Source: Arboricoccus pini
GTDB taxonomy: Bacteria; Pseudomonadota; Alphaproteobacteria; Geminicoccales; Geminicoccaceae
NCBI RefSeq assembly: GCF_900187945.1
Contig: NZ_FYEH01000005.1
Coordinates: 62,001-126,000, forward strand
Direction of reading: 5' to 3'
DNA: 64,000 nucleotides
Positions 39,819 to 45,789 of this stretch are shown here, piece after piece. Position numbers and translations under genes: made by a program. The notes beneath the pieces were generated by a model. That model worked only from the letters and a program-made list of their open reading frames with translations. It had not been told where the DNA came from and searched no databases. Each line of letters starts with the position of its first letter. The stretch's first letter is position 1.

Positions 39819-42458
39819 TTGTCGCCGACGACGCACCCAGAACCGATCCGATTGGCGGACTACAGGCCGCCAGTCTGTGAGTTTGAAGAGATCAGCCTCG
39901 ATTTCGTACTCGACCCCGATGTGACCACCGTCACCTCGCGCCTTAAGGTTAAAACCCGTTCCGGTGCACCAGAAACGCTCGCTCTCGATGGTCGCGAACT
40001 GACGCTAAAATCAATCAAGATCGACGATCGACCGCTGGGTCGGGACGAGTTCCAGGTAGATCGTGAACATCTGACGCTTATCGATGTGCCGAGCACCTGC
40101 CTTATCGAGATCGTCACTACGATCGCGCCTCGATTGAACTCGGCGCTCATGGGACTTTATCTGTCGAACGGAATCTATTGCACGCAATGCGAAGCTGAAG
40201 GCTTTCGCCGCATCACCTATTTTCTCGACCGACCCGATGTCATGACCCGTTACAAGGTGCGAATCGAGGCCGATCTTGCGTCGTGCCCGGTTCTTCTTTC
40301 CAACGGCAATCCGGTAGGTGGCGGCAAGCTTGCCAACGGCCGCCATTTCGCCCTGTGGGAGGACCCTTTCCGTAAGCCGGCCTACCTCTTCGCGCTCGTC
40401 GCTGGCGATCTCGCTTGTTTAGAAGATCACCATGTGACGCGATCCGGTCGTCGTGTCGCATTGAAGCTCTATGCCGATTCTGCGGCCATTGACCAATGCG
40501 CGCACGCGATGGACTCCTTGAAGCGATCAATGCGCTGGGACGAGGATGCTTACGGTCTCGAATATGATTTGGACCTGTTTCAGATCGTCGGGGTTGGTGA
40601 TTTCAATTTCGGTGCCATGGAGAACAAAGGGCTAAATATATTCAACACATCGGCACTCCTGGCTCGGACCGATACATCGACTGATGGAGATTTCCAGCAA
40701 GTCGAGAGAATTGTCGCGCACGAATATTTTCATAACTGGAGTGGAGACCGTGTTACTTGCAGAGACTGGTTTCAGCTCACGCTCAAGGAGGGGCTCACCG
40801 TCTTCCGGGATCAGCAATTTTCGTCGGACATGCATTCGGCCGCAGTGAAGCGCATCGCCGACGTCATGCTTCTGCGCGAAACGCAGTTTGCGGAGGATGC
40901 CGGCCCTCTTGCTCATCCCATCCGTCCGGAGTCTTACGTCGAGATCAATAATTTCTATACTCGTACGGTCTATGAGAAGGGCGCCGAGGTCGTGCGCATG
41001 CTGCACACGCTTCTCGGTGCTGAACTCTTTCGCAAAGGCATCGACCTCTATTTCGCGCGTCATGATGGATCGGCGGTGACGTGCGAGGATTTCGTCCAGG
41101 CAATGGCGGACGTTTCAGGGCGCGACCTACGACGCTTCATGCGCTGGTATAGCCAAGCTGGTACCCCCGAGGTGCGAGTGACTCGTGAGTTCGATTCGTC
41201 CACGGGCAGCCTGACGCTGGAATTTACGCAGTCGACACCACCCACGCCCGGGCAACAGGCCAAGCTGCCGCTTCATATTCCGATCAGAGTCGGACTTGTT
41301 GGCCGGGACGGCCAAGCGTTACCTCTACAACTCGCCGGTGAGAATGCCAAAGGGGAGACGGCCAGGGTTCTTGAACTCACCGAAGAACGACAGAGTTTTA
41401 CTTTTGTCGGGCTGGATGCGGCGCCGGTCCCTTCGATCTTGCGTGGGTTCTCCGCGCCGGTCCGTCTGCGGAGCGATCTCACGAAAGACGATTTGCTGCA
41501 TCTCTTGAAGCATGACGAGGATGCCTTCAATCGCTGGGAGGCAGCACAGAGTCTGGCGGCCGAGGCCATCGTCCAGGCCATAAGGATGAGCCCGCAACGA
41601 CAGCCCGTACCCGATGCCGACCTCATCCAGGCCTATAGCCGCCTACTGGAAGGCTCGATCGAGCAAGACCATGCCTTCGTCGCGCGGACGCTCAGCCTGC
41701 CCGGCCGTTCGTTCATCGCGCAGCAACTGAGCGTCATCGACGTGGACGCGATGCATCGCGTCTTCAAGACCTTCCAGGAGACAATCGGAAGAGAACTGGA
41801 GGCGCCCTTGCTTGCCGCCTATCGGAGCATGGCGCGAATTGACGATGGTTCGACCCGCACGGCGGCGATGGCAGCACGTACGCTGAAGAACGCCGCACTG
41901 GCTTACTTGGTCATAGGGCAGCCCGCGAAATTCGAGCCCCTGGCGGTGTCGCAGTACCGCCAATCGTCTATGATGACGGATCGCCTCTCTGCTCTTCGCA
42001 TTCTAGCAGAAATCGACGGGGCGGCCGGCGCATCGCTTCTCGAGGATTTTTATGGACGCTGGCAGAATGAACCATTGGTTGTGAACAAGTGGTTTGCGCT
42101 GCAGGCGGGCATTGAGGACTACAAGTCTCCCGAGCGTGTCGAAGCGTTGATGCAACATCCGGCCTTCACACTAGCTAATCCCAACCGCGTACGGGCTTTG
42201 CTGGGAACGTTCTCGATGGCGAATTTGATCGGCTTTCATCGGGAGGATGGTGCTGGCTATCGGTTACTCGCGGACAAAGTCATCGAACTTGATAGCAAGA
42301 ATGCCCAAGTGGCCGCTCGCCTGCTGACGACGTTCGGTCGTTGGCGGCGTTTCGATCTTCATCGTCAACAGATGATGAAGTCGCAATTGGAGCGGATCCT
42401 GGCTGTTCCGGGGCTGTCACGTGACTCCTACGAGATCGCTAGCAAGAGCCTAGGCTGA
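39819..42458 (+). CDS. pepN: Aminopeptidase N (M1 family)
   Basis: Zinc aminopeptidase that removes N-terminal residues from peptides in the cytoplasm. It starts with TTG at 39819, with AAGGA eight bases upstream, giving 879 residues as in E. coli PepN. The exopeptidase motif GAMENKGLNIF is followed by HEYFH at 301-305 and the third zinc ligand Glu near 324 in LKEGLT. The region TRYKVRIEADLASCPVLLSN and the C-terminal helical domain (FNRWEAAQSLAAEAIVQAIR) are typical. It is the last housekeeping gene before the accessory region. Confidence 0.97.
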   Translation: MSPTTHPEPIRLADYRPPVCEFEEISLDFVLDPDVTTVTSRLKVKTRSGAPETLALDGRELTLKSIKIDDRPLGRDEFQVDREHLTLIDVPSTCLIEIVTTIAPRLNSALMGLYLSNGIYCTQCEAEGFRRITYFLDRPDVMTRYKVRIEADLASCPVLLSNGNPVGGGKLANGRHFALWEDPFRKPAYLFALVAGDLACLEDHHVTRSGRRVALKLYADSAAIDQCAHAMDSLKRSMRWDEDAYGLEYDLDLFQIVGVGDFNFGAMENKGLNIFNTSALLARTDTSTDGDFQQVERIVAHEYFHNWSGDRVTCRDWFQLTLKEGLTVFRDQQFSSDMHSAAVKRIADVMLLRETQFAEDAGPLAHPIRPESYVEINNFYTRTVYEKGAEVVRMLHTLLGAELFRKGIDLYFARHDGSAVTCEDFVQAMADVSGRDLRRFMRWYSQAGTPEVRVTREFDSSTGSLTLEFTQSTPPTPGQQAKLPLHIPIRVGLVGRDGQALPLQLAGENAKGETARVLELTEERQSFTFVGLDAAPVPSILRGFSAPVRLRSDLTKDDLLHLLKHDEDAFNRWEAAQSLAAEAIVQAIRMSPQRQPVPDADLIQAYSRLLEGSIEQDHAFVARTLSLPGRSFIAQQLSVIDVDAMHRVFKTFQETIGRELEAPLLAAYRSMARIDDGSTRTAAMAARTLKNAALAYLVIGQPAKFEPLAVSQYRQSSMMTDRLSALRILAEIDGAAGASLLEDFYGRWQNEPLVVNKWFALQAGIEDYKSPERVEALMQHPAFTLANPNRVRALLGTFSMANLIGFHREDGAGYRLLADKVIELDSKNAQVAARLLTTFGRWRRFDLHRQQMMKSQLERILAVPGLSRDSYEIASKSLG

Positions 42459-42466
42459 TCGAACCG

Positions 42467-42500
42467 AGGGGTGGCCTCGCTCAGGCGATGGCCATCCCCT
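42467..42500 (+). other. Long imperfect hairpin just after pepN
   Basis: AGGGG-TGGCC-TCGC pairs with GCGA-TGGCC-A-TCCCCT around a TCAG loop with two single-base bulges, ending about 40 bases after the pepN stop. There is no T-run. It could protect the 3' end of the mRNA or act with Rho, and it marks the boundary with the accessory region. Confidence 0.5.
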
Positions 42501-42597
42501 ATCTCCGGCAACTTCCTCGGCATTGGTTCAGGCTTAATATAAGAATATCATCCTCCTGCTGTCGCGGTCGAGACTGCAGTTGCAAGGAGCGGGATCG

Positions 42598-43188
42598 ATG
42601 GCTTACGCGGCGCGGAATCTGTCGTGTCCGCTCTACGTGAATGGCCGCACTCTTTGGCATTGCAGGATGTGTGACCGGAGCACGACGGTCGTTACGACGG
42701 GGTATCTCAACGAAACGGTTTCGATTGCTCCGCATTAGGGCTTCATTCTCGATAATACGCGGACCGACAGGAGCGGTGGCGACAGCGGCGTGATGGTCGT
42801 GCTGTTCAACGCTGGCGGTATCGTCGACGTTTCGAACGCCGAAAGCTTCGTGTCGGCCGTGTCAACCGCAGCCCCAGACGCTGCGCCCGCCATAGTGTTA
42901 TCGGGTGTGCCGACGCAGATCTGCTCCGCGTTGTCTTTCTCCGACATGGCCTCTCAGAGTGCGAGTCTTGTCGACAAGACCGCCGACGACAATGGGCGTG
43001 CCTACCGCGTTGCAATAGCGGCCGGCGGTGCCGAGGTCCGTATTGCCGAATCCTGTGATGGGCATCGCGCATTCCGTTCAGGTAGCGGCCACGAATGCTT
43101 TGGGGAGGGGCCGGTGGCGCTCGCAATTGCCTTCTGTACGGCAGGTGTGGCGACCGATCCAAACGATCGGCCCCGGCATCACGAATGA
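42598..43188 (+). pseudogene. Phage-type protein remnant with an in-frame amber stop
   Basis: The first 46 codons (MAYAARNLSCPLYVNGRTLW ... VSIAPH) resemble small proteins common in alphaproteobacterial phages and prophages, which begin MAYxAxNL and continue xGxTLWxYxTxDxxxxVxTxGYF. After a TAG at 42736-42738 the same frame continues for 150 codons: GFILDNTRTDRSGGDSGVMV with NAGGIVDVSN, matching the expected continuation of the family. It ends in sequence that no longer fits. The family assignment is pattern recognition, not a search result. Suppression of the amber is possible but unlikely, given that the following genes are also broken. Confidence 0.55.
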
Positions 43189-43195
43189 GTATCAG

Positions 43196-43883
43196 GTCAC
43201 GGCGGAGTTGATCGTGGGTTGGCGAACCCTCGTCGGCACAGCGATTGGGCCGCGACATGGCGGTCTTGCGGTGGCGTCAACGGTAATTTCTTGCAAGCGA
43301 CCTAGATCAAAGGGGCAACAATTGGCACCGGCACGCCAATGCGCGGCCCGACTCTATAGCGCGGCCCTGAGTTCGTCCGTCGCGGATCGAGTCTATATCG
43401 ATGGCGGCTATAATGACCTCCGCTACATGCCCCAAGACGCCGTCACCAACGCAGCCTGACGTTGCGATTTCAGACATATGATCTCGGTGTTGCTGACGTC
43501 GGGTCTCTACACGTCCGACAATATTGTTATCGGCTCACCCTATTGCGTTCCGGCTAACATGTTCAACAACAAGACCACGCCCTTCGTCGTGGCTGATCGA
43601 ACGATCTTTGAGGGTTATGTGGCGGCGGGTCGCGACCATCCTGGGCACAGCACTTGCCATGTCGTCCCAGCACAAACTGGCAATCGTCTACATGAAGTCG
43701 ATAAATAGCTTTCTAATCTACATCGACAGAGCGGCGCAGGCGGCGGCCCAGAACTCCGTTCTCGCGGGCAGCCAGGGCACCGGAACGGGCTTTCAGGTTC
43801 GTCAGGGCAGTGTGGAGCCCGCCTGTGCCAACGCCTATATCTCGCAGTCCGTCAGGTTCGGAACCGGAACATATGCGCCATGA
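43196..43883 (+). pseudogene. Further phage-like coding debris in several frames
   Basis: Short stretches of protein-like sequence occur in alternating frames. IQTIGPGITNEYQVTAELIV followed by GW begins just upstream, around 43155-43210; VADRVYIDGGYNDLRYMPQD lies near 43380. Then LYTSDNIVIGSPYCVPANMF with NNKTTPFVVADRTIFEGYVAAG (43500-43630) is followed, after a one-base frame change, by ILGTALAMSSQHKLAIVYMK, SINSFLIYIDRAAQ and NSVLAGSQGTGTGFQVRQGS up to 43883. The pieces read as one or two decayed genes, likely phage structural or tail-associated because of the neighbouring remnant. No specific family is claimed. Confidence 0.4.
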
Positions 43884-44043
43884 GCAGGTTAATATCGCTT
43901 ACGATGGCCCCATGACTATTAAACTGCCGACCCTATCTGTGTTCGTGGCTGGCGTGCCTTGATCTTTTTCTCAATCTACGGTCAAGACTCTCTCCGGCCA
44001 GCGGCGGACGACCTTTTTTGGGGATCTGGAACTGAGCGAGCGA

Positions 44044-44373
44044 TTGATGAAAGCGGAAGGGTCGCTAAGGCGCCGTTTCTGCGTGGCGGTTTTCGTGGTC
44101 TTGAGCGGCTGTCAGTTGATGACGTCAGAACAGACTGCCCCTAGCGCTCCGGCCCCCGTTCTTTCGGGCAATCCGCAAATTCCAGCTCCTCCCCCGCCCA
44201 AGCCTCGGGTTATTACACGCACCCAGGTCAAGACGCTGGTTAAGGCTGAGAAAATCTGTCCGTCAAAAGGGCCTATAACCTTGACCCAGCAGGATATTGC
44301 CTCACTCAGCCAAAGTCTAATGATGCAGATCGACCAGCATAATCAGGAAGGCGCCGCCGCTGGTTGCTGGTGA
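44044..44373 (+). CDS. Small proline-rich lipoprotein, possibly phage-derived
   Basis: 109 residues with a lipoprotein signal: basic start (LRRRFC), hydrophobic core and lipobox VLSGC at about residue 22. The mature part begins with a Ser/Ala/Pro-rich stretch including PAPPPPKP, followed by RTQVKTLVKAEKICPSKGPI and a C-terminal helical region (SLSQSLMMQIDQHNQEG). A short outer-membrane lipoprotein with a Pro-rich linker near phage remnants recalls Rz1-type o-spanins, but it is longer than those and no inner-membrane partner is seen. A second ATG at 44047 would serve equally. Confidence 0.5.
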   Translation: MMKAEGSLRRRFCVAVFVVLSGCQLMTSEQTAPSAPAPVLSGNPQIPAPPPPKPRVITRTQVKTLVKAEKICPSKGPITLTQQDIASLSQSLMMQIDQHNQEGAAAGCW

Positions 44374-44644
44374 TCGCCGTGAGCCCGGATGGATTGGAGA
44401 CGGATCGAGGGCGCGTGGCCAGGAGAACGCCGGACGTCTTTCCCACCACTGGCATATCGAATGCCGGATGCGATTGGCTGTCTATCAAGGCTGCTTGAGC
44501 TGAGAGAGAAAGTTTCGTCGGTTCCGGGGAGGCTGCAATTGACTATCCTACGACCCATGAGCCAGTTCGATTGCAGGCGAGCCTTGCCCGCAATCGCACA
44601 TAATACTGCGGAACGGCGGACTACTGAGAATCTGCGACCAAGCC

Positions 44645-45460
44645 GTCTGGACTAGGCCGTAGACTCATAACCGCGCAGCCACAGCCGTATTGAGGCGAGT
44701 TGGACCATGGCGAGGAAGTTGACGGCGAGCTTGTCGTATCGGGTGGCGATCCGGAGGAAATGCTTCAACTTGGAGAAGAAGCGCTCGATCAGATCGCGTT
44801 CTCGGTAGAGCCGCTTGCTGAAGCACGGCTTCCAGCGGCGGTTGCTCTTCGGCGGGATGTTGGGCGTGGCGCCCTGTTCCTGAATCAACTCGCGGATGCG
44901 GTCGGCTTCATAGGCTTTGTCGGTCAGCACGATAGTGCGCGGACCGAGATGGTCGAGCCGGGTGTCGGCGATCTGGCCGTCGTGGGTTTGCCCGGCCGTC
45001 AGGGCGAGCCGGATCGGGAGGCCTTGCGCGTCGACGACGACGTGGATCTTGGTCGTGAGCCCGCCTCGTGATCGACCGAGACAGTGATCTGCCCCCGTTT
45101 TTTTGCTGTCGCGGCCTGTTGGTGGGCACGAACGGAAGTGCTGTCGATCATCTGGATGGCGCCGTCATGGGCGGCGGTGATGGCGTCCATCAGCCAGTCC
45201 CAAACACTTGCCTTCCGACATCGCACGAAGCGGTTGTAGCAGGTGGTGCGCGGACCATAGCGCTCGGGCAGATCGCGCCATGGCGCTCCGGATCGCAGCA
45301 CCCAGAAGATGCCATTCAGCACACGGCGATCTTCGACGCGCGGCACACCTCGCGGCTTGTTGGGCAAGAGTGGCTCGATCACGCGCCACTCGAAGTCGGT
45401 TAGGTCATATCGGCTCATACCCGCTTGAATCATCAACCGATGACCTACGGAAGGCCGGAC
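44645..45460 (-). mobile_element. IS5-family insertion sequence (IS427-like group)
   Basis: About 816 bases. Imperfect terminal repeats are visible: the left end reads inward GTCTGGACTAGGCCGTAG with ACTCAT, and the right end, on the other strand, GTCCGGCCTTCCGTAG with GTCAT. One transposase gene fills the element. I could not identify a target-site duplication. The element separates the phage-like debris from a small orphan ORF and may have helped break up this region. Confidence 0.85.
44652..45418 (-). CDS. IS5-family transposase, two frames joined by a -1 shift
   Basis: The first frame starts MSRYDLTDFEWRVIEPLLPN, with NGIFWVLRSGAPWRDLPERY and the first DDE aspartate in IQMIDSTSVRAHQQA. 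It would terminate at 44999. The rest of the transposase (DHCLGRSRGGLTTKIHVVVD, then TDKAYEADRIRELI and ERDLIERFFSKLKHFLRIAT with the catalytic Glu) lies in the -1 frame and ends at 44652. The join falls at an A7 tract (complement of 45098-45104), giving A-AAA-AAC, a classic slippery site. The fused product would be about 256 residues. The element may thus still be active. Confidence 0.88.
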
Positions 45461-45495
45461 TTGATCTCGAACGGTTGTCCTCGCATCTATAGGCA

Positions 45496-45789
45496 ATGGC
45501 CGTGACACTGCTCCCTTTATCGAATGGACACTACTCGTTGGAGTTCGAGCCTGCGGACCTGCCGTCGGTGTCATCGGCCATTCGCGATCGCTACGGCGTG
45601 CCCGACAAACGCCAATATCCGACATCTGCCGAGTATCGGTTCGGTGGGTGCAGTTTCACCTTCCAAAACGAGTGGGATGATCCCTGCCTTACTTCTGGAT
45701 CAGCCGAAGGCGACGACATCCTTAAGAGCCTTCACAGCGATCTCAGCACCGGCGCCTGTTACGCCCGCCTTTATGGATTCTCGGCCTAG
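45496..45789 (+). CDS. Hypothetical 97-residue protein
   Basis: An ORF starting MAVTLLPLSNGHYSLEFEPA and continuing through AIRDRYGVPDKRQYPTSAEY and FGGCSFTFQNEWDDPCLTSG. Its composition is balanced and globular-looking, with alternating hydrophobic positions, unlike a chance ORF. There is no clear Shine-Dalgarno sequence. The IS5 element lies only 35 bases upstream and may have removed its promoter or start. I do not recognise a family. It does not look like a transposase accessory protein. Confidence 0.45.
   Translation: MAVTLLPLSNGHYSLEFEPADLPSVSSAIRDRYGVPDKRQYPTSAEYRFGGCSFTFQNEWDDPCLTSGSAEGDDILKSLHSDLSTGACYARLYGFSA

Follow-up and report, generated by a model that had tools for sequence, protein, structure and literature searches.

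Does the stretch at 42598-43883 of the analysed window hold a row of decaying phage genes or a single dead one, and what would its intact form have done? The window is the whole stretch of DNA under study, 64,000 nucleotides at positions 62001-126000 of contig C12 of the Arboricoccus pini genome (4.07 Mb in 28 contigs). A first-pass annotation, made from the letters alone, had seen here a chain of decaying phage-like genes, remains of a prophage end module that was possibly tail-associated. Overall, we find that the locus is a real phage-derived pseudogene of unusual design, and we favor, with a probability of about 0.6, one dead gene over a chain of genes. The features that bear on this are as follows.

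39819-42458: peptidase M1 gene, left neighbor
42584..42589, plus strand: putative ribosome-binding site AAGGAG, read directly
42598..42858, plus strand: first domain, in segment A, a phrog_18004 member with an amber inside (profile match and two alignments)
42736..42738, plus strand: amber TAG, at a column of Gly identical in 140/140 placeable intact relatives
42859..43059, plus strand: remainder of segment A, Ala/Pro/Ser-rich, first frame, likely a linker or small domain (no match)
43061..43627, plus strand: segment B, second frame, SGNH-hydrolase-like (aligned part about 43220-43627; codon statistics)
43629..43883, plus strand: segment C, third frame, C-terminal part (codon statistics; no match)
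44652-44930 and 44999-45625, minus strand: IS4/5-family transposase in two ORFs

Layout and lesions of the locus

The relic begins at the ATG at 42598 with MAYAARNLS, the MAYxAxNL start noticed at first pass, 8 bases behind the AAGGAG motif, and meets its amber at codon 47. Family-like sequence continues in frame past the amber, as had also been noticed, and this first frame stays open, in phase with the ATG, until the TGA at 43186-43188. The second frame runs from about 43060 to 43627, and the third from 43629 to the terminal TGA at 43881-43883. Of the two frame switches that had been proposed, the one around 43628 holds, but the other had been placed around 43190, whereas the first change lies near 43060 and 43186-43188 is merely the next stop of the first frame. 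The earlier list of lesions was likewise right about the amber and the frame changes but missed a nonsense TGA inside the second frame (43457-43459).

Codon usage, trained on four neighboring genes, marks all three segments as coding in the predicted frame: the observed score was reached by 2, 0, and 0 of 300 first-order resamples for A (42598-43059), B, and C, respectively, against 203/300 for a control made of the 138 bases before the ATG (42460-42597). Since the frames were picked by eye beforehand, these statistics serve as support and not as independent discovery. The length of the open frame is not significant by itself (an equally long run occurred in 18% of 500 shuffles). The class of GC content by codon position switches between windows 42900-43139 and 43020-43259, and the first-frame pattern persists to about 43019, beyond the end of the phrog_18004 domain.

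The surroundings agree with the earlier description of housekeeping genes on the left and an IS5 element on the right, given the peptidase M1 gene and the IS4/5-family transposase; the latter separates the relic from a bacterial sugar-transferase gene. IS inverted repeats were not found within 44560-45560, nor a tRNA within 22 kb of the relic. Among the ORFs tested within 42598-45789, none was recognized as a phage structural gene, so that the proposed prophage end module is not visible beside the relic. An ORF at 44047-44373 has a lipoprotein-like start and is not clearly coding (28/300 resamples reach its score); it hits an Rz-like spanin weakly (E 0.008), and its other hits are no stronger than weak.

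The first domain and its capsid-associated relatives

With the amber written as X, the relic falls into phrog_18004 (E 2.4e-7 over residues 1-82), a phage family of unknown function. Intact members are proteins of about 89 residues whose gene adjoins the major capsid gene in a compact podovirus-like block, and 158 of the 184 intact family open frames outside the window are exactly 89 residues long (redundant loci included). The relic departs from this form through its amber and through a frame that continues past residue 89. It also lacks an adjoining capsid gene, the only capsid match found in the genome lying ~137 kb away.

The relic protein has relatives in 25 of 31 Geminicoccaceae-family genomes (E ≤ 0.001), single-copy in 24 of these 25, the exception being the genome studied here, which carries two: the relic and, ~137 kb along the same contig, an intact family protein of 97 aa. 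A profile search at E ≤ 1 extended this to 27/31 genomes and found second, mostly weaker copies in five other family genomes, one of which has three side by side. In genome G003, three family matches stand in a row adjoining a capsid gene (L203:8381-9185), and three genomes of one genus carry weak second members away from the block (L204:5470-5817, L205:6677-7039, and L206 near 818-931), those of L204 and L205 being about 115-120 aa long and the latter matching phrog_18004 at E 7e-6. More broadly, the phrog_18004-type domain was matched in 69 of 385 alphaproteobacterial genomes. Three genomes of ~0.9 Mb from one family, 99-100% complete, have one family match each (G098:C4, G217:C2, and G387:C5), a phage-type gene kept in small genomes.

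In our scans, relatives were encoded on 512 genome contigs and 384 viral contigs, and the best 80 of each were kept. Of the 80 genome loci, 79 have a detected capsid gene and 77 a tail-tube A gene; tail-tube B was detected in 71, terminase in 55, and portal in 53, and truncation at contig ends explains at least part of the missing genes. The capsid protein of this genome's own block matches Phage_capsid_2 (E 7.3e-80), and in Pelagibacter phage EXVC031P an 81-aa product encoded directly after the matching capsid gene aligns with the family.

We then compared folds using a model of the domain built solely from intact members (50 aligned sequences, pLDDT 84.9). The best solved fold is 9eg4_H, a chain of 89 residues in the icosahedral capsid of LME-1 phage (Z 10.1 against 5.0 for the next row; rmsd 1.7 over 74 residues; 23% identity). 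Foldseek returned no PDB match at E ≤ 0.001, with 9eg4_H absent among the 50 matches listed, and six matches among viral models, five named "uncharacterized" and one nameless. Sequence searches of PDB with the domain returned 4 and 3 matches, none better than chance, and 9eg4_H was missed by sequence profiles. From its size, its presence in a capsid structure, and its gene position, the domain is a putative "decoration protein", and a phage family of unknown function acquires a probable structural identity through its fold, which is that of a capsid chain. The tail association suggested at first pass gives way accordingly: the first domain belongs to a capsid-associated, not a tail, family.

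Closer counterparts of the relic itself were sought in several ways. For an intact copy of its locus at the DNA level, two of 60 genomes matched, namely its own, the sole representative of its genus among them, and another with a 31-base piece. Protein searches of annotated phages returned nothing for any of the three segments or for the second half of B taken alone. Single-protein pattern scans, which reach close relatives only, gave no match to A, to B, or to its second half on viral contigs, and none to 42790-43188 on genome contigs. A tree of the domain places the relic among Geminicoccaceae rows, on a branch of 6.05 and with an odd composition, and the placement is therefore not relied on.

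Segments B and C and the case for one gene

Neither B nor C matches Pfam, PHROG, or NCBIfam, and Pfam likewise returned nothing for the read-through; C had no match anywhere searched. Segment B reaches E ≤ 0.01 in 8 of the 385 genomes, this one included. Its sole strong match elsewhere is an intact 481-aa SGNH protein in genome G140 (E 1.8e-6 within its genome), the other six outside matches being no better than 7e-4. This protein matches PF13472 at E 1.6e-17, has a weak LamG-like match, and also matches tail-fiber and virion PHROGs. Its local alignment with B scores 42.4 bits (29% identity over 139 columns), against at most 26.2 bits when B and C of the relic were shuffled 200 times. At the GxND block, GYNDLRY of the relic (GYND at 43406) aligns with GLNDLRY. 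Where the catalytic serine block GDS is expected, the relic has GPG (43169, at the expected distance, placed by eye), and the DxxH block is missing at the expected end, the only D..H of the three frames standing in the wrong place at 43466.

Among the 31 family genomes, weak matches of B occur in 14 at E ≤ 0.1 (best outside its own genome, 0.0012), and these fell away with a longer piece of B, for which the window alone stands at E ≤ 0.001. PDB returned nothing for B by sequence, and a single-sequence model of it was unusable (pLDDT 34.7). As read by eye, the 481-aa SGNH gene has no phage structural block beside it; with a 119-aa gene it stands alone among apparent housekeeping genes (L222:5199-6948).

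Of the three blocks that the first-pass annotation had advised searching against phage proteins, the first has many intact phage-type relatives, the second resembles an intact SGNH protein, and the third has none. The phage-type relatives of the first block and the lesions support its view of the locus as phage-derived and decaying; neither non-phage homologues nor a failure of every block to match outside the strain, the outcomes it had named as contrary, was observed.

For the nature of the locus, a single decayed gene is the simplest reading, its three frames having presumably once encoded one protein. That the relic could instead combine the remains of two or three distinct genes from one prophage or block (a capsid-associated gene of ~89 aa, an SGNH fiber gene, and perhaps a third) we regard as rather unlikely: intact family members do nearly always end at ~89 residues, and G140 has its 119-aa gene directly before the SGNH gene, but the first-frame GC pattern reaches ~43019 with no stop until 43186, and locus L210 provides a precedent for a longer gene with the domain at its head. 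The 446-aa protein encoded there (L210:4480-5820) matches phrog_18004 over residues 1-72 (E 0.0031), three repeats following the domain, and its gene is flanked by the capsid gene on one side and by a family member of 93 aa on the other. An intact protein joining the MAY and SGNH parts was not found: a motif scan of loci L042 onward for the two together returned only the G140 protein (present twice) and one L143 protein, and in 16 loci the stretch from the capsid-associated gene to tail-tube A, read by eye over at most five ORFs each, held no fusion. ORFs in this position at L128:10377-11610, L149 from 11510, and L200:10823-12030 resemble CPBP-type membrane proteases.

It is also possible, though we consider it improbable, that the first domain is real and B and C derive from an unrelated phage or host gene, with the SGNH match arising by chance. 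B lacks any match in Pfam, PHROG, or NCBIfam, and the G140 match is one of 8 at E ≤ 0.01 in 385 genomes, another being the window itself; the alignment score nevertheless lies well outside the shuffled range, NDLRY is in common at the GxND block, and both segments carry a coding signal. Finally, a gene still in use through reading of the amber would be consistent with the family match of the frame beyond it. The first-pass annotation had already judged recoding a poor fit and had proposed looking for the amber in relatives. A motif located this column in 140 of 147 distinct intact family proteins, and all 140 have Gly there with an adjoining Asp, both lost in the relic. Since Gly is found in every placeable protein, and with three further lesions downstream (a nonsense codon and two frame changes), we reject a recoded amber as highly improbable.

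Returning to the single gene, the relic is most likely a dead capsid-docked, receptor-processing protein, for which we infer the docking and outward display on the capsid, the function, the substrate, and the origin. In the intact protein, the phrog_18004 domain would dock on the shell of a podovirus-like particle, and a flexible Ala/Pro/Ser-rich linker would join it to the hydrolase domain. The SGNH-type domain, held outwards, would then bind and probably deacetylate surface polysaccharide, as SGNH phage fibers do. The proposed activity follows the SGNH domains in fibers of phages G7C and Possum, which deacetylate surface polysaccharide according to PMC9569702. With two nonsense codons, two frame changes, and no recognizable catalytic serine or Asp/His block, the relic can no longer work.

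A conserved podovirus-like block and comparison with known systems

Taken alone, the relic is a pseudogene; the stronger lead is the conserved podovirus-like block to which it points in these bacteria. The block reads HTH/S24-type regulator, small protein, portal, T7-like scaffold (weak), capsid, and capsid-associated protein, followed by tail-tube A and B, a gp14-like protein (weak match), and terminase. It is seen in many Rhodospirillales-type genomes (L026-L032 and L122-L201) and at L025:4354-14253 in the genome studied here (G000:C12:237353-247252). In flanks read by eye at a few loci, this genome's block has a serine recombinase on one side (L025:2582-4231), close beside a split terminase, and an N-formylglutamate amidohydrolase gene on the other. 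Its terminase (L025:4699-6109) and tail-tube A (L025:8527-9065) are each split over two frames; for five relatives (L026-L030), each matching gene of the eight queries aligns in one piece, and L031 and L032 are cut by contig ends.

In a tree of the domain, computed from 82 rows and 89 columns and with a bootstrap that had not settled, the grouping largely follows the host: the Geminicoccaceae rows and most Azospirillum rows form groups, for example, and scattered Magnetospirillum and a few stray Azospirillum rows are among the exceptions. Capsid dN/dS ranged from 0 to 0.12 in nine close pairs chosen by us. The intact family protein of this genome has an identical counterpart on a 10.9-kb IMG/VR contig (L042). 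On the phage side, the relative MT838907 shares 59% identity in the capsid protein and 61% in the small protein, the latter over about half its length, and the capsid protein also matches a further 125 phage records.

Such a block could represent a domesticated particle, and a group of temperate phages is also a possible fit. We tentatively raise the further idea, to which we assign a low likelihood, that the relic was once the receptor-processing protein of a so far undescribed gene transfer agent (GTA), a single-copy, podovirus-derived block of ~10-13 kb now being lost here, of which the ~10-kb Azospirillum lipoferum particles could be the product. The hosts named for this candidate block are Geminicoccaceae, Azospirillum, Magnetospirillum, Ferrovibrio, and relatives. 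According to PMC3899980, particles of Azospirillum lipoferum and B510 contain ~10-kb DNA and were tentatively assigned to regions with an RcGTA-like gene order; the podovirus-like block is an alternative candidate source of these particles. Three GTA lineages are classified in PMC9662315, the main text of which mentions neither Azospirillum nor Rhodospirillales, and at the level of listings and abstracts our literature search recognized no paper on a podovirus-type GTA in these bacteria. If the block were a GTA, it would form a lineage apart from the three types of PMC9662315, and the genes behind the ~10-kb Azospirillum particles would become directly testable.

The NCBIfam model GTA_spike_fiber was over its cut-off in 0/31 family genomes. 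Among 14 control genomes it gave a signal in 5, of which 3 exceeded the cut-off, and is therefore by itself no sign of a GTA. A fiber gene inside the Ferrovibrio block matches this model (L132:14041-15252, E 6.4e-49).

With the head spike fibers of RcGTA, the proposed relic protein would share a role as a surface-binding protein on the head; the comparison is one of function rather than of sequence, with GTA_spike_fiber finding nothing over its cut-off in the 31 genomes. The RcGTA head spikes are encoded away from the main cluster. Among the relatives described above, the phrog_18004 proteins (e.g., L025:9199-9492 and L132:10001-10270) have the first domain in common with the relic by sequence profile, but the relic is broken, continues into further coding sequence, and is not beside a capsid gene. 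The L210 protein resembles it in design, with a phrog_18004 domain heading a longer gene, although there the gene is intact and adjoins the capsid gene, and the remainder consists of three repeats and is not SGNH-like. The relic suggests that other modules can use a small capsid-associated domain as their anchor. It would be akin to the SGNH fibers G7C gp63.1 and Possum gp66 (PMC9569702) in virion-bound deacetylation of surface polysaccharide, a likeness by proposed action and not by direct sequence comparison. Unlike these fibers, the relic has an unrecognizable serine block, and its anchor would be a capsid-associated domain rather than a tail-fiber anchor.
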